The position numbers and the translations under genes are program-made. A stretch of 7,690 nt of DNA. Source: Methanobacteriota archaeon (GTDB lineage Archaea; Thermoplasmatota; Poseidoniia; Poseidoniales; SP79). The notes under the pieces are model-generated. The model was given only the letters and a program-made list of their open reading frames with translations, was not told the DNA's origin and did not search any database. Position 1 is the first letter of the stretch; each line of letters starts with the position of its first letter. This document shows positions 1 through 7,690 of the stretch, one piece after another. Location of the stretch: positions 70,193 to 77,882 of the forward strand of contig PAZI01000027.1 of the NCBI GenBank assembly GCA_002715545.1. The letters are read 5' to 3'.

Positions 1-299
1 CACATCTTACAAGGGCTTAAAGTTAAATACATTACTTTAGTCTTCGGGTTATTATAGTCCATCTTAAGCAAACAGTTTATTTCTGCATGAATAAAACCAG
101 ATTGCCCAGGTACTTCTGACTCAACTTCGTTGGGACCACCAGAGTAATTACCATTATACCCCACTGATAATACCTGAGTGTTATCAGACGTTACGACGAT
201 TGCGCCTACCTGATAGCGTGGATCATATGATCTTTTAGAAATCGCAGTTGCTACATTCGCCCAGACGCTATCCCAAGAAGGTCTGTGGTTATTTTCCAT
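1..299 (-). CDS. dCMP deaminase, N-terminal part (cut by left edge)
   Basis: The first 99 codons of a gene that continues past the left edge. It starts with ATG at 299, one base after the TAA of the upstream gene. The translation reads as a zinc-dependent deoxycytidylate deaminase: an N-terminal helix (RPSWDSVWANVA), then QVGAIVV, then SVGYNGNYSGGPN, then the catalytic HAE motif in GFIHAEINCLL, and at the very edge SPCKM, whose next codon begins TG and would complete PCxxC. The His and two Cys are the family's zinc ligands and the Glu is the proton shuttle. The family converts dCMP to dUMP, the substrate for dTMP or hydroxymethyl-dUMP synthesis. That fits the thymidine kinase, dNMP kinase and ThyA-like genes upstream. 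There is no clear Shine-Dalgarno before the start, so translation is probably coupled to the preceding gene. A ComEB-type or related CDA-fold deaminase is the only realistic alternative. Confidence 0.88.
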   Translation of the reverse strand, partial: MENNHRPSWDSVWANVATAISKRSYDPRYQVGAIVVTSDNTQVLSVGYNGNYSGGPNEVESEVPGQSGFIHAEINCLLKMDYNNPKTKVMYLTLSPCKM

Positions 300-300
300 T

Positions 301-1734
301 TTAATCTTTTAATAGACCAGCATTCTTTTGCCAAGTTTCGTACAAACGATTTTGTGGACGAAACACATCGTCTAATCTTTTATGAACAAATTTTCTAATT
401 TGAGTTGTTGTGATCTTGCGCTGTCGACTTTCGCTAGTCTGAACTAAGACCTGTGCTGCAAGACTTGGAATTAGCTCCTCTAAAGAATCAAAGTTTTTCT
501 TAGCAAACCTCTTTGACTTAATCAGCGTTTCTTCGTGCGCGCCACGCCAGGTCTTAACTGCCTTGGCAACAGCTTTTTCAACAGCAGCCTTGCCTTTATC
601 AATACCGGTAAAGATTCCATCTTTTAACTCTTGGCTTCTGCCTTTAGCTTGAAGCGTTTTTTGACTCGAGTCGGATAACGAAGACTCCCAATCAGATAAA
701 GCTTTGGCGACAGCATCTTTTGGTGACATTGGCTTAGACTGTACTTCGGCTGCAGCGGCCTTTATTTCTTTTGCAGGATCAGACTCTTCCTCAGGGTTTT
801 CTGGAACCTCTTCACCCTCAGCGCCTTCTTCACCTTCAGCACCTTCAGCACCTTCTTCGCCCTCTTTACCTTCACCTTCGCCACCTTCAGCAGAAGCAGC
901 AACAGGACCTTCTTCAGATTCTTTTCCAGGAGGCGGAGCTTCTTCGGCAGAACTATGAACACCCTTTACAACATCTGGTGGGACTACTGCTTTTTCAGCG
1001 GCCGCAGAAGTTTTTTGAACTTCTACGTCTAGTGACTTTAGCTGGCCGAATGTCAAATTTAATAATTCGTCAGCCAATTTATCGACTGGCAACTCATCAA
1101 TCTCTTCAGCTCCAGGAATTGAAGCAATAAATTTTGATTTGCCCATTAAAGCGCCAAGCTTCGCCAAAAAGCCCTTAGGCTTAGAGCTCTTAAAAGCCTT
1201 TGATACACCTGATTTTAAATCATCAGCTGTAAGACCGTGTTTGTCAGCGTCTAGATCACTTAAGGTAACGTCGTCTTCAACTTTACCTTCAAGGTTTTTA
1301 CTAATTAATTGAATTGCGCTGGCTAGCGTTTGGCCGGCAGTATTCGACTTATTTTGTAAATCAATTACAGCCTGAAGTGCTCTGGAAACATCCATCTTTT
1401 TCCCAAAAAACCCCTTAATTTGAGCAGCCACTCCATCTGCATCAGCTAAATCTAGCTTAGAAGCAAGAGTGCCAGCCTTTGTTAACGAGCCTTTTAGCTT
1501 ATTAAAATAGTCGACCAATGACGCAAGATTAAGCTCATTTGCAACTTTCATATTTTGATCAACTGCCTTCATGGAAACCTGAACAGCTGATCTTAGCTTT
1601 TCAATATCGGCATCATTGATGTCTTCCATCAACATTCCATAGACAGAACGATTAGACATTGCATGCTCAAATAGTACATTGTCGTCGACTAATTTTAACG
1701 CTATCTCGTATAATATCTCAGAGTTTTTCTTCAT
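301..1734 (-). CDS. Unrecognised protein with acidic Glu/Gly/Ala-rich linker
   Basis: I do not recognise this 477-residue protein. The frame opens at an ATG at 1752, but the ATG at 1734 (MKKNSEIL...) is preferred because GGAGG lies 5 bases upstream of it, whereas the 1752 codon has no well-spaced site. Three parts are visible. Residues about 1-260 look largely helical, with many Ala, Leu and Lys and two short Gly/Lys-rich patches (around GKKMDVSRAL and SKPKGFLAKLGALMGKSKF). Residues about 262-320 form a disordered-looking Pro/Glu/Gly/Ala tract with repeated AEG and EGEE units. The last 150 or so residues are basic and helical (FVHKRLDDVFRPQNRLYETW near the end). No signal peptide or transmembrane segment is evident. 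It lies between the DHH phosphoesterase and the dCMP deaminase but resembles neither. A virion, scaffold or DNA-associated role is conceivable but unsupported. Confidence 0.85.
   Translation of the reverse strand: MKKNSEILYEIALKLVDDNVLFEHAMSNRSVYGMLMEDINDADIEKLRSAVQVSMKAVDQNMKVANELNLASLVDYFNKLKGSLTKAGTLASKLDLADADGVAAQIKGFFGKKMDVSRALQAVIDLQNKSNTAGQTLASAIQLISKNLEGKVEDDVTLSDLDADKHGLTADDLKSGVSKAFKSSKPKGFLAKLGALMGKSKFIASIPGAEEIDELPVDKLADELLNLTFGQLKSLDVEVQKTSAAAEKAVVPPDVVKGVHSSAEEAPPPGKESEEGPVAASAEGGEGEGKEGEEGAEGAEGEEGAEGEEVPENPEEESDPAKEIKAAAAEVQSKPMSPKDAVAKALSDWESSLSDSSQKTLQAKGRSQELKDGIFTGIDKGKAAVEKAVAKAVKTWRGAHEETLIKSKRFAKKNFDSLEELIPSLAAQVLVQTSESRQRKITTTQIRKFVHKRLDDVFRPQNRLYETWQKNAGLLKD
808..899. 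repeat. Imperfect 9-base repeats encoding Ala-Glu-Gly units
   Basis: On the + strand the unit CACCTTCAG occurs in tandem at 831-839 and 840-848, is followed by the variant CACCTTCTT at 849-857, and returns at 882-890. Related CCTTCTTC and CCTCTTC pieces fill the rest. Read on the coding strand the unit gives Ala-Glu-Gly, so this is a coding microrepeat inside the acidic linker of the unrecognised protein. Such tracts change length by slippage. The repeat also produces spurious open frames on both strands here. Confidence 0.75.
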
Positions 1735-1739
1735 ATCTT

Positions 1740-1744
1740 CCTCC
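1740..1744 (-). promoter_or_regulatory. Ribosome binding site deciding the 1734 start
   Basis: GGAGG on the minus strand lies 5 bases before the ATG at 1734. It sits inside the longer reading frame that begins at 1752, so it argues for the downstream start. The ATG at 1752 has only an AGGAAG about 16 bases upstream, too far for good initiation. Confidence 0.75.
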
Positions 1745-1755
1745 GCAATCATTAA

Positions 1756-2616
1756 TTATGAAGATTCTTCCTTTTTTTCTGGTTCTAGAGTAAATAAATT
1801 GTCAATATGCTGATCTATTGGGAGAGTAAAGCCGGCGGCCTTCTTATGACCACCACCCCCAAATTTTTTAGCAAACTCACTAACATCTACATTGTCATGA
1901 AAAGATCTTAAGCTAACCTTAGTAATACCCATATCATGATCAAAATACCAGATCACTGCAAAGTCACAATCGGGAGATAATCTAGACCCAATTTCTGACA
2001 TCCAGTGTGACGCATTTACTATCATAATCTTTTTATCTTCAAAGTAACGGACAACCGCTTTCTCACAAACTTTTTTTACAACTGTCTTTGAATATGCGAG
2101 GATATATGAACCACGCTTAACTGCATCATCGAATACTGAGTCATCTTCAAACTTTTCAAATTCCTCAAATTCAAATGGTACCATATCAAAAGCAGCGCTA
2201 AATTCCTTTGAATAATCAAGCTCCCATGTCCAGAGATCTCTATCCATAATATATCTTACAAACTTTGGCGGTTCTTTACCAGGATGAAAAAATTCCCACG
2301 ATAACATAGCGCCAGATTTAGTCATATCGAAATGTGTATTTGATATATCATGAAGCTCTACCATTGCAGATTTGTGGTGATCAATAACAATTAAGCCCTC
2401 TGCGTCTTCAATCATTTGCTTTGTTGTGGCATTGTCAAATGAAAAATCCAGTATCGCAACAATCTTGTCTTTTACATCTGGAGGGGTTTGACCATGTCTA
2501 CATGCATGATATTCTGCTCTATTACCCAATTGTTTCCAGGCAGCGTATGCTGCACCAAAACCATCGGTACAATCTGCGTGATAGATTACGCAATTCACTT
2601 GGTTGGGTTCAACCAT
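1756..2616 (-). CDS. DHH/DHHA1 family phosphoesterase
   Basis: A 286-residue protein with the layout of the DHH superfamily (NrnA-like nano-RNases, RecJ-like nucleases, c-di-AMP/pAp phosphatases). Motif I is HADCTDG (His13, Asp15, Asp18), motif II is DFSF (Asp57), motif III is the signature DHH (Asp79-His80-His81) and a further acidic site is MDRDLW (Asp125, Asp127). The C-terminal DHHA1 substrate-binding domain ends in GGGGHKKAAG (253-262). All metal-binding positions I can place are present, so it should be an active Mn-dependent phosphoesterase. Length suits the short DHH-DHHA1 forms rather than full RecJ. Substrate cannot be read from sequence: short oligoribonucleotides, pAp or a cyclic dinucleotide product are the family options. 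It overlaps the cupin gene by 8 bases and has AAAGGA 6 bases before its ATG. A lysine/glutamate-rich tail follows the last domain. Confidence 0.9.
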   Translation of the reverse strand: MVEPNQVNCVIYHADCTDGFGAAYAAWKQLGNRAEYHACRHGQTPPDVKDKIVAILDFSFDNATTKQMIEDAEGLIVIDHHKSAMVELHDISNTHFDMTKSGAMLSWEFFHPGKEPPKFVRYIMDRDLWTWELDYSKEFSAAFDMVPFEFEEFEKFEDDSVFDDAVKRGSYILAYSKTVVKKVCEKAVVRYFEDKKIMIVNASHWMSEIGSRLSPDCDFAVIWYFDHDMGITKVSLRSFHDNVDVSEFAKKFGGGGHKKAAGFTLPIDQHIDNLFTLEPEKKEESS

Positions 2617-3025
2617 TTTTATTCCTTTGTTCAGTCATATTAAAATATTCATCATTTAAAACACAAAAAGTGGAATTTCCTGATGAACTGATTTCATAAA
2701 TATTACAATCAGCTAAAGCCTTTAAAGTGTATGGACACCCTGATTGAATTTGAAATACGTCTCCTTTAACTAAAACCCTTCTTGTAACTAACTGAACGTC
2801 TCTATTCAATAAATAAGATTCTGGAGCGAAAACTACTTCTAACTCTCCTTCTTCTAGAAAAAAAGTTTCGCTTTTATTGGTAAAATACTTGGTCCTTGTT
2901 GAGAACCCCTCTTTTATAAAAAGCTTTTTACCAAATATTTGCTGCGTTACAAAATCCCATCTTACTTCATGGCCCCAGTCTTTTACAATTTTTTCAGACT
3001 TTAAAACCCATGCACTTTTATTCAC
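2609..3025 (-). CDS. Cupin-fold protein, sugar-isomerase type, metal ligands replaced
   Basis: A 138-residue single-domain protein resembling the cupin half of type II mannose-6-phosphate isomerase/GDP-mannose pyrophosphorylase enzymes: KDWGHEVRW near the start, a SETFFLEEGELEV strand pair, KGDVFQIQSGCPYTLKAL, and an EISSSG segment near the end. Spacing of cupin motif 1 is kept from Gly40 through Glu53 to Gly60, but the two histidine positions hold Lys46 and Phe48. In motif 2 the usual His is Tyr99 and the usual Pro is Gln94. It therefore probably binds no catalytic metal in the standard way and may be a binding or regulatory protein, or an isomerase of unusual chemistry. The start is GTG, sharing GTGA with the thymidine kinase stop, with AGGAA 5 bases upstream. 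Its 3' end overlaps the DHH gene. The sugar link rests on fold resemblance only. Confidence 0.8.
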   Translation of the reverse strand: MNKSAWVLKSEKIVKDWGHEVRWDFVTQQIFGKKLFIKEGFSTRTKYFTNKSETFFLEEGELEVVFAPESYLLNRDVQLVTRRVLVKGDVFQIQSGCPYTLKALADCNIYEISSSGNSTFCVLNDEYFNMTEQRNKNG

Positions 3026-3621
3026 AATAATTCCTGTGGATTAAAATGATTATGACAACGAGGCTGATACAAATCAGATCCACCAATCTCCAATTTACCA
3101 GGATCATTATTCCCTGCGATTTTTTGTGTAAAATAAGCGTCTTCGCCACAAATAGCACATACTGCAGGACAAATTTGAATATTTGTTGCCCATGGTAAAA
3201 TATCTAATATCTCTTTATAGGACTCGCCAGAAGACGATAATTGCAGACTAGAAACAAGTATTGTTTTCCCAAAAAAATTATAAATCGCTTTAAGAGCACT
3301 AGCGGATCCCCCAATCATAAATGCCTCGTCAACAGCGACAACGTCTATATCGCAACCAGAATTAAGATACTCGAATCTTTCTAATAATTCATCTCCATTT
3401 GCCACATTTTCCACACGACTAAACCCCACTGTCCTAGAAGATAGGCTCAAGCCGCTATGCGTTACAACGGAATTTTTATCATACCTATTATCAATCTTTG
3501 GTTTAAACAGTAAAATACTCTTATTTTGGTATTGGTATCTATCTAAAGCAGCGATTAGACGAGTCGTTTTTCCACCAAACATTGGGCCAGTAAAAATTTC
3601 AAATCGTGGGTTTCTTTTCAT
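3022..3621 (-). CDS. tdk: Thymidine kinase, type II (TK1-like)
   Basis: A 199-residue protein, the usual size for this family, which phosphorylates thymidine (or deoxyuridine) to the monophosphate. Walker A is GPMFGGKT (12-19). The Walker B/catalytic segment is VAVDEAFMI with Asp98-Glu99, Glu99 being the expected base. The structural zinc site is Cys155-x2-Cys158 (VCAICG) with Cys189-x2-His192 (PRCHNHF). Two regions differ from typical members: the Gln of the DEAQF motif is Phe101, and the usual GLDxDF segment before the lasso reads SLQLSSSGESY (125-135). The nucleoside pocket may therefore be altered. The frame is open back to 3648, but the ATG at 3621 matches the family N-terminus (FEIFTGPMFGGK), follows an AAGAGA site, and forms a TAATG stop-start overlap with the epimerase gene, so I use it. 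Confidence 0.93.
   Translation of the reverse strand: MKRNPRFEIFTGPMFGGKTTRLIAALDRYQYQNKSILLFKPKIDNRYDKNSVVTHSGLSLSSRTVGFSRVENVANGDELLERFEYLNSGCDIDVVAVDEAFMIGGSASALKAIYNFFGKTILVSSLQLSSSGESYKEILDILPWATNIQICPAVCAICGEDAYFTQKIAGNNDPGKLEIGGSDLYQPRCHNHFNPQELL
3031..3035 (-). promoter_or_regulatory. Ribosome binding site supporting a GTG start
   Basis: AGGAA lies 5 bases upstream of the GTG at 3025, within the last codons of the thymidine kinase gene. No ATG lies in this frame between the GTG and well inside the cupin domain, so this site supports the non-ATG start and the GTGA stop-start overlap. Confidence 0.65.
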
Positions 3622-4625
3622 TAGGAGTTCTCTTTTAGACCCCACCACTTTATTGTTTCATTTAACCCAGATACAAAATCCCACTTAGGCTTCCAGCCAA
3701 GATCTTCAAAAATCTTTGCTATATTTGCCTTTGTATGCTTAACGTCGCCAGGTCTTTCAGGCGCGTGGTTAATTTCAAGATCACCAAACTTATTTTTAAG
3801 TAAACCCAAGATCTCGTTATTGCTATACGTCGCACCTGTGCCTACATTGTATGTATTACCGCTCATTGTCTTGGGGCTTTCAGCTGCCCTTATATTGGCA
3901 TCAACAACATCATCGATATACACGATATCACGAGTTTGCTCTCCATCTCCATCACTTCGAAGTGGCTGATTAGTGGCAATTTTATCCAACCATGCAGATA
4001 CTGCAGTTGAATATGGACTGTCTCCAGGCTGACCAGGCCCAAATACGTTAAAATACCTCAAGCAAACAGACTCAAGCTTATATAGCTTAAAAAATAATTG
4101 ACAAAAATTCTCAACCACTAACTTTTGTAATGCGTAAGGAGAGGCTGGCTCATAGTTACCAGATTCCCTTGAGGGAAAATTGTCAGAAACATCTCCGTAT
4201 ACAGAGGATGAACTACTAAAAATAAATCTGTCTACATTTTCGATGCAAGCAGTCATAAGCGAAACTGTTTTCATAACATTTTGATCTGTTGTCAAAACAG
4301 GGTTCTCTACAGAAAATTGAACTCTTGGTAGTGCAGCTAAGTGAAATACATAATCGTATCTTTTATCAGCGATTCTAGAAAGGACATATGGACTAGCAAA
4401 ATCCCCAGTGATTACAAGGGTCTTATCTTCAATAATTCCAGACTCTTCATACTGTATTAAAAGCTCAGGTGTGACAGTCCTGATATCTAAATTTTTTAAT
4501 GCATCTAAATCGCCACTAGAAAGATCATCAACAACGTCAACGCTCCATCCTTGCTCAACTAATTTAATAGCCAAATTTGAACCAATAAAGCCACAACCGC
4601 CGGTGACTAACGCTTTTTTACTCAT
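3621..4625 (-). CDS. NAD-dependent NDP-sugar epimerase (extended SDR, GalE-like)
   Basis: A 334-residue extended short-chain dehydrogenase/reductase, close in size to UDP-glucose/UDP-GlcNAc 4-epimerases. The N-terminal NAD-binding motif is TGGCGFIGSN (Gly9, Gly12, Gly15) with an acidic pair VDDLSSG (Asp33-Asp34) that favours NAD over NADP. FHLAA is at about 94-98, the catalytic serine region is FSSSSSVYG (136-144), and the catalytic pair is Tyr164 and Lys168 in PYALQK. RYFNVFGPGQ and RDIVYIDDVVDA are the expected substrate-domain motifs. Such enzymes make UDP-galactose from UDP-glucose or carry out related 4-epimerisations; the exact sugar (glucose, GlcNAc, uronic acid, xylose/arabinose) cannot be read here. 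Supplying the neighbouring UDP-galactopyranose mutase is the simplest role. It shares ATGA with the end of the dNMP kinase gene, with AGGAG 10 bases upstream. A dehydratase is less likely. Confidence 0.92.
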   Translation of the reverse strand: MSKKALVTGGCGFIGSNLAIKLVEQGWSVDVVDDLSSGDLDALKNLDIRTVTPELLIQYEESGIIEDKTLVITGDFASPYVLSRIADKRYDYVFHLAALPRVQFSVENPVLTTDQNVMKTVSLMTACIENVDRFIFSSSSSVYGDVSDNFPSRESGNYEPASPYALQKLVVENFCQLFFKLYKLESVCLRYFNVFGPGQPGDSPYSTAVSAWLDKIATNQPLRSDGDGEQTRDIVYIDDVVDANIRAAESPKTMSGNTYNVGTGATYSNNEILGLLKNKFGDLEINHAPERPGDVKHTKANIAKIFEDLGWKPKWDFVSGLNETIKWWGLKENS

Positions 4626-5149
4626 GTTTCATCAACTCCTAAAAATTTCTTAATTTTAAAAATCTGATTTTCTAGATTCATATCAGACGTTTCCAAATGT
4701 AAAATATCACATTTTGTTTCCTCTAAAAATATTCTATATTGTCTTTCTATTTTTTTTAGAGTTTCACAATTTATTTTCTCTGGAAATAAATCATCTTTAA
4801 TTCCATCATAGCTACTTCTATAGCAAAAAACAAATTTACCGCTAATAGAAGAAAACTTTTTATCCAGCTTTAAAATTAAATCCTTATTAGAACTACGGTT
4901 AAACACATTAGAATAAGCATATTCACAAGGGTAAAATCTATCTAAAATAGCAGATGGATTTGTTTGTACCAAGAAGTCCATCAAGAATGTACCACCAAAT
5001 TTAAGAAGATTTATATAATAATCATCTCCACTTAAATCTGCCTTCCATTCGCCTGTGTTCTTAAAAACAGGAATGTTAATTTCTTTAGATAGTCGAGAAG
5101 CTATATTCGACTTTCCTGTCATATCTGGACCAATAAAAGCTACAATCAT
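4622..5149 (-). CDS. Thymidylate-kinase-like deoxynucleoside monophosphate kinase
   Basis: A 175-residue P-loop kinase. Walker A is GPDMTGKS (7-14) directly after the first strand, and the DR motif Asp70-Arg71 in LDRFYPCEYAYS corresponds to DRYxxSxxAY of thymidylate kinases, where Arg contacts the monophosphate. FVFCYRSSYDGIKDDL probably covers the third strand and a shortened lid. It is shorter than typical TMK (about 205-215 residues) and lacks an obvious full arginine-rich lid. The family transfers phosphate from ATP to dTMP or a related dNMP. In this neighbourhood a modified or viral dNMP is a reasonable substrate, but this is inference. The frame is open to 5206, yet the extra 19 residues precede the first beta strand and overlap the glycosyltransferase, so I use the ATG at 5149, 4 bases after that gene's stop. 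No strong Shine-Dalgarno is present. Its 3' end overlaps the epimerase start (ATGA). Confidence 0.82.
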   Translation of the reverse strand: MIVAFIGPDMTGKSNIASRLSKEINIPVFKNTGEWKADLSGDDYYINLLKFGGTFLMDFLVQTNPSAILDRFYPCEYAYSNVFNRSSNKDLILKLDKKFSSISGKFVFCYRSSYDGIKDDLFPEKINCETLKKIERQYRIFLEETKCDILHLETSDMNLENQIFKIKKFLGVDET

Positions 5150-5153
5150 TACT

Positions 5154-6197
5154 TTACCCGCAAAGCTGCTCCAAAAGGTCGACGCGGGCCTCAGGGCGAG
5201 GATCAATAACTGTCCTTAATGCCTCTTCCTGCAGATTTACCAAACCTAGTCTATCGTTTGCAGAAAGAGTTGATATCCACTTCGTCTTTTTAACAACATC
5301 CTCAGAAGATCTAACGATTAATGATTCGTCACTAAGACCAACAGGGCGAGCGTGCTCATATTCCCATGGAATTAAAGCTGGTACCCCACTCTTGATAGCT
5401 TCGAAAAACCTTCCCGTAATGTTTCCAAAAGGTGTATAGTCATCTTTCGTAATATGCGTTACCGTAATAGAAGAATTCAAAACAGAAAAAATATCTTTAT
5501 AAGCAAGGCGTGGACCAAATGCAACATTAGGCGCGTTCGTAATTCTAGCACCAGGATCTTCTCTTTCTGGAGATCTGGCCAGCCAATTACCACAAACATA
5601 TGTCTGAATACCTGATTCTCTTAGAGGGGTGCTGGGGTCAACGTAATATTTCTTAAACTGATTTTCTCTCTCGTAATTATTCCCAACGTAAGTATAGTTG
5701 TAAGAATATTCGACAGGCGAAAAATAACGCTGCATATAATTGCACCATGGGATTGAAATTCTTTTCCTAGTTAGCATTCGAGGATTTACACATGCATCGG
5801 AAATCACAGCGTTTGGCCAACGCTGTTCTTCTTCAGCTGTCATTTTAAGATCGCCGTCATGAATAATAATGGGCACTCCAGCAGCATGATAGTGATCTAA
5901 AACCTCACATTGCCTAGTATAGTCAGATTCTTGAGGATTGTTACCAGAATTTTTCCATGTCGGCCAACGCCATTCGCAATATACAATATCACCATCTGGA
6001 AAACCAACCGGGCTGTACTCAACACCCGGAAACTGCTCTTCATCTCTCATTTTCTGAAGCTGAATTACAGTGTGATCTCTACTTTGTAATTCTCTTACAA
6101 AATCAACTCGATTACCTCTCTCACCATCCGGGGTATTTACCATTGAATTTTTTTCTAGCGGCGTAATAAATCCCCAAAAGCTATAAAGAACTCTCAT
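5154..6197 (-). CDS. Probable GT-B-like glycosyltransferase
   Basis: A 347-residue protein without signal peptide or membrane segment. The start (MRVLYSFWGF) looks like the first strand of a Rossmann-like N-terminal domain, followed by a region where Asp/Tyr/Trp-rich strands alternate (DIVYCEWRWP; VPIIIHDGD). The second domain starts around YVGNNYERENQ (170-180). It contains ITVTH, TGRFFEAIKSGVPALIP (261-277) and a further strand before the end. The F-E-A-x-x-x-G-x-P pattern is the nucleotide-sugar-binding loop of GT4/CgeB-like transferases. Coming right after UDP-galactopyranose mutase (one base between stop and start), it likely uses a furanosyl or related UDP-sugar. The acceptor (virion protein, cell surface or modified DNA base) cannot be seen. 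The ATG at 6197 is chosen over 6209 because GGAG lies 6 bases before it. Confidence 0.72.
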   Translation of the reverse strand: MRVLYSFWGFITPLEKNSMVNTPDGERGNRVDFVRELQSRDHTVIQLQKMRDEEQFPGVEYSPVGFPDGDIVYCEWRWPTWKNSGNNPQESDYTRQCEVLDHYHAAGVPIIIHDGDLKMTAEEEQRWPNAVISDACVNPRMLTRKRISIPWCNYMQRYFSPVEYSYNYTYVGNNYERENQFKKYYVDPSTPLRESGIQTYVCGNWLARSPEREDPGARITNAPNVAFGPRLAYKDIFSVLNSSITVTHITKDDYTPFGNITGRFFEAIKSGVPALIPWEYEHARPVGLSDESLIVRSSEDVVKKTKWISTLSANDRLGLVNLQEEALRTVIDPRPEARVDLLEQLCG

Positions 6198-6198
6198 A

Positions 6199-7308
6199 TT
6201 ATTCTCCATTATTCCTTAATTCTTTTTTTGCCTTTTGCAAAGCTGAACCAATTACTTGGTGCATATCGTAATAACGATATTCAGCTAATCTACCTCCAAA
6301 TATTATATCACTATTTCTAGCAAGAACAGAATACTTCTTAAAAACCTCACTGTTCTTTTTATCATTTACAGGATAGTACGGTACCTTACTTGGTGACCAA
6401 TCCTGCGGATACTCTTTCGTCACTATCGTCTTTTCAAGACTCGCAGCCTCTTGTGGTTGAAAATGTTTATGCTCCACTATCCTAGTATAAGGTACTTCAT
6501 AATCAGTATAATTTACGACTGCGTTTCCTTGAAAGTCGCCATCGTGAACTTCATGCTCGAAGCGTAATGATCTATACTCTAGATAGCCATGCTCATAATC
6601 AAAAAACTCGTCAATCTTACCGGTAAATACAGTCTTATTGGCCATGCTATCCCAGGTTTCTCTATCTTCTAGATAATCAACGCCTGTCCGGACATCTGCG
6701 CCTTCAAGCATATTGCCAATCATTTTCGTATATCCGTTTTTTGGAATACCCTGGAATTTATCAAAGAAATAGTTTTCTTCAAAGATTAAACGAATTGGTA
6801 AGCGTTTAATGATAGAAGCGGGCAACTCGCTTGGGTGCCGCTTCCATTGCTTCATAGTATAGCCCTTGATAAAGGTCTCATAAACTTCTCTACCAACTTG
6901 TGATAAAATCCATTCCTCTAAATTTTGTGGGTTCTCGCAAGGAATTCTGACTTCTTGTAATTTAGCCTCTGCCTCAGCGGGTGTTGTCACTCCCCAAAGC
7001 TGGTGTAGAGTCATTAAATTTATAGGAAATGAGTAAATATTTCCACGGAAATTGACCTTAGGCTTATTGATATATTGATTGAACGTTGCAAATCGATTTA
7101 CAAAATTCCAGATTTTTTCATTGTTTGTGTGAAAAATATGAGGCCCGTATACATGAACATCAACACCTTCTCTTCTTTCTGAGTAGCAATTTCCACCGAT
7201 ATGCTCTCTTTTGTCTAATACCAAAACAGTTTTACCGGCATCTAACATTTCTCTAGCGAATGTAGCTCCGAACATACCGGCACCCACAATTAAATAATCA
7301 TACTTCAT
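6199..7308 (-). CDS. glf: UDP-galactopyranose mutase
   Basis: A 369-residue flavoenzyme that interconverts UDP-galactopyranose and UDP-galactofuranose. Length and motif order match bacterial Glf (about 367 residues) from end to end. The FAD-binding motif is VGAGMFG (8-14) with LDKREHIGGN (31-40) after it, then GPHIFHT (55-61), LHQLWGV (101-107), the substrate-site segment IKGYTMKQW (147-155), ELPASIIKRLPIR (161-173), the active-site arginine region VPYTRIVEHKHF (Arg276), KEYP, YYPVND, and FGGRLAEYRYYDMHQ with Arg340. The two arginines are those known to hold the diphosphate of the substrate. No key residue appears lost, so it should be active. The gene overlaps the upstream gene by 11 bases and has a strong AAGGAG 5 bases before its ATG. 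Bacterial UGMs have also been reported to accept UDP-arabinopyranose, so the true sugar is open. Confidence 0.97.
   Translation of the reverse strand: MKYDYLIVGAGMFGATFAREMLDAGKTVLVLDKREHIGGNCYSERREGVDVHVYGPHIFHTNNEKIWNFVNRFATFNQYINKPKVNFRGNIYSFPINLMTLHQLWGVTTPAEAEAKLQEVRIPCENPQNLEEWILSQVGREVYETFIKGYTMKQWKRHPSELPASIIKRLPIRLIFEENYFFDKFQGIPKNGYTKMIGNMLEGADVRTGVDYLEDRETWDSMANKTVFTGKIDEFFDYEHGYLEYRSLRFEHEVHDGDFQGNAVVNYTDYEVPYTRIVEHKHFQPQEAASLEKTIVTKEYPQDWSPSKVPYYPVNDKKNSEVFKKYSVLARNSDIIFGGRLAEYRYYDMHQVIGSALQKAKKELRNNGE
6203..6207 (-). promoter_or_regulatory. Ribosome binding site deciding the 6197 start
   Basis: GGAGA, with GGAG 6 bases before the ATG at 6197, sits in the last codons of the mutase gene. 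The competing ATG at 6209 has AAGGA only 3 bases upstream, which is too close. The first residues after 6197 also form the expected beta strand. Confidence 0.65.
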
Positions 7309-7690
7309 TTCTTCTCCTTAAATCAACTTCGTAACCAGAATAATCAAAGTCTATCTTTTCTAAAATTTGTCTGTTGATACCTAGCTTCTTTGCTCGATGA
7401 TAAGCTAGCAGACTCGCAAAATCTGTCCAAATGTTTTTATTCTCACCTTGATATATGTTTCGCAATAATTCATCTAATTCAATTTCTGTATTGGATGATC
7501 TTAATTTTTTCTCAAATGCTAAGATCTTTTGTAACCACTCTTCTTTCTTGCCGTTCAAAAAGTCGGTATGCTTGAGTTTTGGCATAGCCCCATTGCGTAC
7601 TAAAGCCATTATTGACTCATGTTCTCCTCGATCTGTTAAAATTGTTCTACACATCTTAAAGTGTCTTTCATAAATGTGCAGAGAATTACT
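7298..7690 (-). CDS. Possible thymidylate synthase/dNMP hydroxymethylase-like protein, C-terminal part
   Basis: The last 130 residues of a gene entering from the right edge. The frame stays open from an ATG at 7654 to the window end, and the added residues SNSLHIYERHF contain H-x-Y-x-x-H (7661-7678), the pattern that in thymidylate synthase (HLYSNH in E. coli ThyA) and its dCMP/dUMP hydroxymethylase relatives contacts the deoxyribose 3'-OH. I therefore read it as a truncated ThyA-fold protein rather than a complete 118-residue one starting at 7654, which also lacks a good ribosome binding site. The part after the motif is about 120 residues against roughly 55 in E. coli ThyA, and holds an extra helical block (EEWLQKILAFEKKL, NIWTDFASLLAYHRAKKLG). 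The end DYSGYEVDLRRRNEV shows only a faint likeness to the ThyA terminus. The family call rests on one motif. The gene overlaps glf by 11 bases. Confidence 0.45.
   Translation of the reverse strand, partial: SNSLHIYERHFKMCRTILTDRGEHESIMALVRNGAMPKLKHTDFLNGKKEEWLQKILAFEKKLRSSNTEIELDELLRNIYQGENKNIWTDFASLLAYHRAKKLGINRQILEKIDFDYSGYEVDLRRRNEV
7314..7319 (-). promoter_or_regulatory. Ribosome binding site of glf
   Basis: AAGGAG, 5 bases before the ATG at 7308, is the best-placed Shine-Dalgarno match in the window. It lies within the final codons of the upstream gene, so the mutase can be translated efficiently even though the two genes overlap. Confidence 0.7.

Follow-up and report, generated by a model that had tools for sequence, protein, structure and literature searches.

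The question raised by this locus is whether a run of nucleotide and sugar genes in a viral genome serves to attach a sugar to DNA. The stretch analysed, called the window here, comprises 7,690 nucleotides from a virus record of 188,264 bases (G000:C1:120496-128185, minus strand), and all whole-record counts refer to that record as given. An initial annotation of this DNA had described an uninterrupted minus-strand run of interleaved pyrimidine-nucleotide and sugar-nucleotide genes and had read it as a candidate DNA hypermodification cassette; the run was confirmed, since ten genes fill the window, all on the minus strand and joined by overlaps or short gaps. Judged from sequence, the operon very probably makes DNA with glycosylated 5-hydroxymethylcytosine (hmC), whichever the sugar, and the complete explanation, in which the product would be galactofuranosyl-hmC DNA, is one that we consider reasonably probable.

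At the right edge of the window lies the 3' part (7298..7690, minus strand) of a gene for a ThyA-family protein, whose 5' part falls outside. The fragment inside the window gave no Pfam match and one weak PHROG match (thymidylate synthase, E 0.012); the whole gene (L002:7864-8889), encoding 341 amino acids, scored 109 bits to PF00303, which settled the ThyA relationship on which the initial annotation had staked its proposal. When compared with the sequences of the PDB, the best match of the protein was MilA, the CMP 5-hydroxymethylase of mildiomycin synthesis (166 bits), well ahead of the best thymidylate synthase (73.9 bits) and of T4 gp42 (64.9 bits), and all eight listed thymidylate-synthase equivalog cut-offs were above its scores (e.g. 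92.3 vs. 327 and 71.5 vs. 108.35 bits).

The active site points in the same direction. The protein equals T4 gp42 at 13 of the 13 positions read and has Asp186, Ser176, Arg134, Asp152, Ser99, Tyr101 and Cys155 as in the T4 enzyme. In the available parts of the papers cited here, cytosine substrates are associated with Asp (Asp186 in MilA, Asp179 in T4 gp42) and uracil with Asn, and Ser plus Arg in place of Ala176 plus Lys133 of MilA go with deoxyribose (PMC5175136); MilA has the latter pair for ribose, whereas the pair in the window protein is Ser/Arg, that of the deoxyribose-preferring enzymes. Roles in hydroxymethylation are described for Asp145, Ser94 and Tyr96 of T4 gp42 (PMC6400193), whose counterparts in the window protein are Asp152, Ser99 and Tyr101, respectively; across 50 proteins, these water-addition residues were found in 48 (Asp152), 45 (Ser99) and 50 (Tyr101). 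The features of a dCMP hydroxymethylase, namely the ThyA family, the catalytic Cys and Glu, Asp at the Asn177 position and Ser/Arg for deoxyribose, are all present. By these sequence features the right-edge gene is of the dCMP-hydroxymethylase type and not a thymidylate synthase.

In the record, PF00303 matches the ThyA-like protein alone; one ThyX is encoded as well, so that dTMP has another source and the ThyA-like protein is not needed for it. Likewise, each of 17 records had one PF00303 match, and ThyX was found in 15 of the 16 related records searched. A function as thymidylate synthase was therefore rejected on the basis of Asp186, the failed equivalog cut-offs and the presence of ThyX. 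A hydroxymethyluracil pathway was also discarded, as the proteins of the Spounavirinae phage Goe26 and of mycobacteriophage Candle have Asn at position 186, where the window protein has Asp.

The gene at 5154..6209 (minus strand) encodes the candidate DNA glycosyltransferase (GT). The protein scores under the Pfam cut-off (22.1 vs. 25 bits), and a tblastn search with it at E 1e-3 gave no match in the phages collection, T4 included. In contrast to this single-sequence result, a profile of its family had T4 DNA beta-glucosyltransferase (BGT) as its sole match among PDB sequences, and hhalign of the family to three BGT proteins gave 89.0% with E 2.4e-6. The BGT active-site residues D100, R195, R269 and E272 are kept identically in 27 of 27 aligned sequences; the D100A substitution is named in a PDB title. 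The initial annotation had left it to be seen whether the enzyme would side with protein- or glycan-directed transferases: the profile and the active-site residues place it with T4 BGT. The structural comparison that it had also suggested stood up only in part, as described below, although the predicted model has a GT-B fold. The enzyme would thus be a distant relative of BGT (GT63), and we do not file it as a member, the likeness being at profile level only. ORF003c of phage RB69 was tried as a relative and dropped, as hhalign gave 0.3% and no profile similarity, in a test that is weak because one side was a single sequence.

That the ThyA-family enzyme makes some other C5-modified dCMP, 5-methyl-dCMP or 5-hydroxy-dCMP, with the sugar attached there, is very improbable. 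An Asp at the decisive position can also give 5-methyl-dCMP (PMC8670742), and a ThyA-superfamily 5-hydroxy-dCMP synthase has been reported for RB69-type phages (PMC13390438), but the RB69 homologue departs from the window protein and from T4 gp42 at four positions (99 T, 152 E, 178 N and 218 F), whereas those two agree at every position read, and a methyl group would offer no hydroxyl to a BGT-like enzyme. The arabinosyl-hmC of RB69, with which the initial annotation compared the locus, is out of date in this respect: the arabinose of RB69-type phages is now reported to sit on 5-hydroxy-dC, with no methylene, and to depend on a 5-hydroxy-dCMP precursor (PMC13390438).

A stronger argument than the interleaving of gene classes, which the initial annotation had put first, is the conserved linkage in viral relatives. 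A scan with the window GT found 53 viral loci; as many of these are near copies, counts are also given for the 34 clusters formed under 90% GT identity. A hydroxymethylase lay near the GT in 49 of the 53 loci and in 33 clusters (tblastn plus profiles, with profile counts at E 1e-3 for a set size of 10000), and all 49 of these enzymes have Asp at position 186. The profile used had been built partly on proteins from seven of the 53 loci. In 48 of 48 loci measured, the hydroxymethylase was on the same strand as the GT and at most 3.7 kb from it. Three of the four loci without it (L026, L040 and L052) stop at a contig end, and in the record of the fourth (L058) a ThyA homologue lies at a distance of about 11.5 kb. 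The kinase was near the GT in 50 loci and 31 clusters, although its scores were weak (22-57 bits) in L053-L056 and L061, and in 47 of the 49 loci where the distance was measured, no more than 50 nt separated it from the GT. This linkage reaches GTs that are merely 22-31% identical to that of the window. The GT of L027, seen by tblastn and missed in the ORF calls, was counted as its own cluster, which leaves 52 loci with measured gaps. L008 is outside the 53, as is its twin L010, a contig with a truncated GT and a hydroxymethylase; two loci from a scan of viral contigs with BGT are not counted either.

The reverse control started from UDP-galactopyranose mutase (Glf), whose gene in the window (6199..7308, minus strand) is the proposed source of the donor sugar. 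Among the best 80 of at least 573 confirmed viral Glf loci, 10, with Glf of at least 71% identity, have the hydroxymethylase, the GT and the kinase, and the remaining 70 have none of them; 28 of these 70 exceed 20 kb and the others are shorter, and the 10 positives lie on contigs shared with the GT set. These figures bear on the explanation offered by ordinary dTTP supply beside a module that decorates glycans or proteins of phage or host. Three of the window genes (dCMP deaminase, thymidine kinase and the protein with the thymidylate-kinase fold) belong to the dTTP route, and most phage Glf genes in this control lie outside a hydroxymethylase context, L079, L080 and L082 being in glycan gene clusters as judged by eye. 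Nevertheless, we give this explanation very little credit: the ThyA-like protein has the Asp that specifies cytosine while ThyX serves dTMP, the GT resembles BGT and is accompanied by a hydroxymethylase in nearly all of its loci, and no PF00534 or PF00535 gene is found in the record.

Upstream of the window, the ThyA-like gene is preceded, after a gap of 6 nt, by the gene for a 1200-residue DnaE-type polymerase and, before this, by that for a 124-residue PRA-PH/MazG-like protein. The latter scored 28.3 bits to PRA-PH (cut-off 21.3) and aligned with T4 gp56 in hhalign (81.1%, E 1.2e-5). Therefore, of the dCTPase or dUTPase that the initial annotation proposed to look for, a gp56-like candidate for the former is just upstream, whereas no trimeric dUTPase (PF00692) was found across the record. 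Contigs with modified cytosine have been linked to ThyA with Asp177, PRA-PH and dCMP-deaminase domains (PMC8670742). The proposed hmdCMP kinase (4622..5149, minus strand) is a P-loop protein of 175 amino acids that resembles dNMP kinases; its Pfam matches are all sub-threshold, but a confident predicted model has the thymidylate-kinase/YorR fold. A T4 gp1-type kinase was considered and dropped, and p045, the thymidylate kinase of RB69, was rejected as a relative because the alignment is limited to the P-loop.

The gene set of an hmC pathway is hence found together, with functions assigned by likeness: a hydroxymethylase, a dCTPase-like, a dNMP-kinase-like and a DNA-GT-like protein, plus another source of dTMP. 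The pyrophosphatase of PRA-PH/MazG type would remove dCTP, and the ThyA-family enzyme would convert dCMP into hmdCMP with methylene-tetrahydrofolate. The small P-loop kinase would phosphorylate hmdCMP, a host nucleoside diphosphate kinase would complete hmdCTP, and the DnaE-type polymerase would put it into DNA, where the BGT-like enzyme would glycosylate hmC in an inverting reaction. The dTTP would come from dCMP deaminase, ThyX and thymidine kinase. The type of the hydroxymethylase, the BGT likeness, the conserved linkage and the gp56-like pyrophosphatase together make glycosylated hmC well supported.

Several observations weigh against this reading. The predicted GT model had BGT first in VIA-align, but tied with several GT4 enzymes, and in Foldseek BGT was only 15th, with other GT-B enzymes ahead. 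BGT R191, presumably a contact to the UDP phosphate, is opposite a gap in 24 of 24 family members, in a loop where the alignment is unsure. The window kinase showed no profile similarity to T4 gp1, and the record of L053 is the one among the 16 searched in which a ThyX match is absent. Finally, one GT homologue carries the name of a Chlamydiae metagenome assembly, so the family may extend beyond viruses; a pattern-limited search of bacterial and archaeal genomes gave 32 candidates, of which none was confirmed.

As for the sugar itself, the Glf of the window passes NCBIfam TIGR00031 (379.3 bits vs. a cut-off of 303.75; GLF Pfam 3.8e-76) and aligns along the E. coli mutase 1i8t with 442 bits, and its gene overlaps those of the hydroxymethylase and the GT by 11 nt each. 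The proposed source of UDP-galactose is a UDP-sugar 4-epimerase-like short-chain dehydrogenase/reductase (SDR) at 3621..4625 (minus strand; NAD epimerase, PF01370 4.9e-52), with 6dnt, 6wjb and the UDP-glucose 4-epimerase 4zrm as closest solved relatives. Epimerase and Glf together could convert UDP-glucose (UDP-Glc) into UDP-galactofuranose (UDP-Galf), by a route in which the epimerase would produce the galactopyranose form (UDP-Galp) and the mutase UDP-Galf, and the most likely product would be beta-galactofuranosyl-hmC. Seven of the 64 Glf proteins placed in a tree are linked to a hydroxymethylase; they need four changes of cassette label, at least three of them forced by supported branches, indicating that Glf joined or left hydroxymethylase cassettes repeatedly (at least three times). 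In the clade of the window, Glf lies between the hydroxymethylase and the GT in 10 of 10 Glf loci.

The same glycosylation of hmC with a pyranose, glucose or galactose, as the transferred sugar, and with Glf serving another purpose or a further step, is the alternative that deserves the closest attention, although we regard it as rather unlikely. T4 BGT uses UDP-glucose (PDB titles), and a donor other than UDP-Galf suffices for relatives whose GT is 59-62% identical. A Glf above 400 bits was near the GT in 20 of 53 loci and 10 of 34 clusters, leaving 24 clusters without a true Glf; weak scores of 24-60 in L035, L056, L059 and L060 are not included (24 loci and 14 clusters if they are). Of 16 records searched whole, the four with a true Glf were those chosen for having it in the cassette, and in the other 12 no Glf was found elsewhere, bar one weak FAD match of 25 bits, so a furanose is not a requirement of the GT family. 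The epimerase also stays under the GalE equivalog cut-off (160.3 vs. 262.3 bits), and the Glf proteins of L053 and of phiM9 sit on long branches of the tree. These points argue against a furanose. On the other side stand the fixed place of Glf in the window clade, with its overlaps in the window, and its repeated gain or loss by cassettes. In addition, the three GT families searched (PF00534, PF00535 and PF13524) gave no match in the record, and the window GT as query found its own copy only, although such family searches can miss GTs, the one of the window being itself overlooked by PF13524.

Our reading of the locus is therefore one of a fixed core with exchangeable donors, which would be Galf in the clade of the window. 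In its widest form, an apparently viral family of BGT-related GTs would sit in a fixed hydroxymethylase-kinase module in which the donor genes are swapped, with UDP-Galf used here and independently elsewhere to put a furanose hexose on hmC; towards this form we lean only slightly.

The neighbours of the core were also inspected. In L034, L043, L046 and L049 the GT-hydroxymethylase-kinase core is kept and the sugar genes vary, being either a second SDR epimerase/dehydratase-like gene (L034 and L043, without Glf) or an epimerase-like gene plus Glf. In the distant cassettes L056:8472-9746, L057:8538-9779, L059 and L060, an FAD oxidoreductase-like protein (L056) or weakly matching proteins occupy the place of Glf upstream of the GT; these could be further enzymes of donor-sugar supply or base modification.

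Comparison with known systems shows where the locus departs from them. T4 shares the hydroxymethylase active site, a BGT-related GT and a gp56-like pyrophosphatase, and its gp42 and BGT genes adjoin near the DNA polymerase gene, near which the hydroxymethylase and GT genes of the window record are likewise placed. In contrast, the kinase of the window is not gp1-like, the polymerase of the record is of DnaE type, dTMP depends on ThyX, the operon includes the epimerase and the mutase, and the GT is only distantly BGT-like. A parallel in gene order is the cultured Lactobacillus phage ATCCB (MK504445, L063), in which a ThyA homologue of hydroxymethylase type (40.5% identical over the match), a BGT homologue and Glf are encoded by three consecutive genes, but its GT is plainly homologous to BGT (32% to that of T4) and not of the window family. 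The terms glucosyltransferase, hydroxymethyl and restriction gave no match in the available part of the ATCCB paper (PMC6563214).

Enterococcus phage phiVPE25/VFW has in one region a ThyA homologue of hydroxymethylase type (38.4% over the match), BGT, thymidine kinase and a DnaE-type polymerase. Its cytosine modification has been demonstrated by resistance to bisulfite and restriction enzymes, and it has a nucleotide-sugar-like protein 28% identical to a beta-1,6-galactofuranosyltransferase (PMC4999554); unlike in the window, no Glf is annotated in the 16.6 kb read. RB69, the case of Mosigvirus arabinosyl-dC, likewise groups a ThyA-superfamily gene with sugar genes and a thymidylate kinase close to the polymerase in a single block, but differs by the active-site changes and by the unrelated ORF003c mentioned above. 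In RB69 (L150:2048-4214) the thymidylate-kinase gene is near the ThyA-family gene, a layout that parallels the window, with sequence similarity in the P-loop alone. In Agrobacterium phage Atu_ph04, dCMP hydroxymethylase and Glf are annotated apart, and Glf was read as cell-wall related (PMC6630229).

Sugars on phage DNA guard against restriction enzymes and lower Cas cutting (PMC12838424), and few are known, those reported being glucose, gentiobiose, arabinose and an unidentified pentose (PMC12838424, PMC13390438). If our reading is right, galactofuranose would put a hexose in furanose form on DNA, and the available parts of the open-licence literature that connects the mutase or its sugar with phage DNA or hydroxymethylation showed no report of this. 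If the core of hydroxymethylase, kinase and GT is conserved and its sugar genes are exchangeable, undiscovered DNA sugars could also be predicted from sequence alone, and the cassette family would yield new DNA glycosyltransferases as reagents. As ATCCB, a cultured phage of a food bacterium, has a parallel cassette, the claim is directly checkable.

The other genes of the window, all on the minus strand, are the 5' part of the dCMP deaminase (1..299; PF00383 7.4e-20 for the whole gene, L002:15888-16319, whose end lies outside the window), a 483-residue acidic low-complexity protein without a family (301..1752; no Pfam match above cut-off and weak PHROG matches only), a DHH/DHHA1 phosphoesterase (1756..2616; PF02272 1.1e-8, phrog_4771 9.2e-75), a small cupin (2609..3025; Cupin_1 E 0.018, and phrog_7851, 'cysteine dioxygenase', 1.3e-14) and thymidine kinase (3022..3621; PF00265 3.1e-34). 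The gene identities of the initial annotation held for the deaminase, thymidine kinase, epimerase, mutase and ThyA-like protein by family scores and for the kinase by predicted fold; its 'sugar-type' label for the cupin is not established, as the family matches are weak, and the DHH and acidic genes were unmentioned in it. The 483-residue protein has a Glu/Gly/Ala-rich acidic stretch and is partly conserved near dCMP deaminase in close relatives. The phosphoesterase is near the cassette in 28 of the 53 GT loci, with 45-91% identity, and its role is perhaps nanoRNA or pAp turnover. An Rfam search of the window gave no match, and its DNA was similar to phage records in just two weak places; promoter-like sites numbered 26 (21.9 expected) and terminator-like sites eight (4.1 expected).

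Elsewhere in the phage, on L004 and L149 (G000:C1:145941-156569), 10 of 86 ORFs examined have at the N-terminus one of two recurring tags, M(K/N)LLREYI(R/K)xLLxE or MK(I/V)TK(R/K)QLRRIIRE-like. The tags resemble the capsid-targeting leaders of T4, which suggests that the tagged ORFs are a set of packaged internal proteins. By eye, metabolic-type genes were also recognised (L149:9444-10289, 15612-17060 and 14733-15056; L004:7689-9263 and 12268-13281) as cysteine-synthase-like, PEP-carboxykinase-like, IscA-like, GroEL-like and GuaB-like, an unusual load for a phage.

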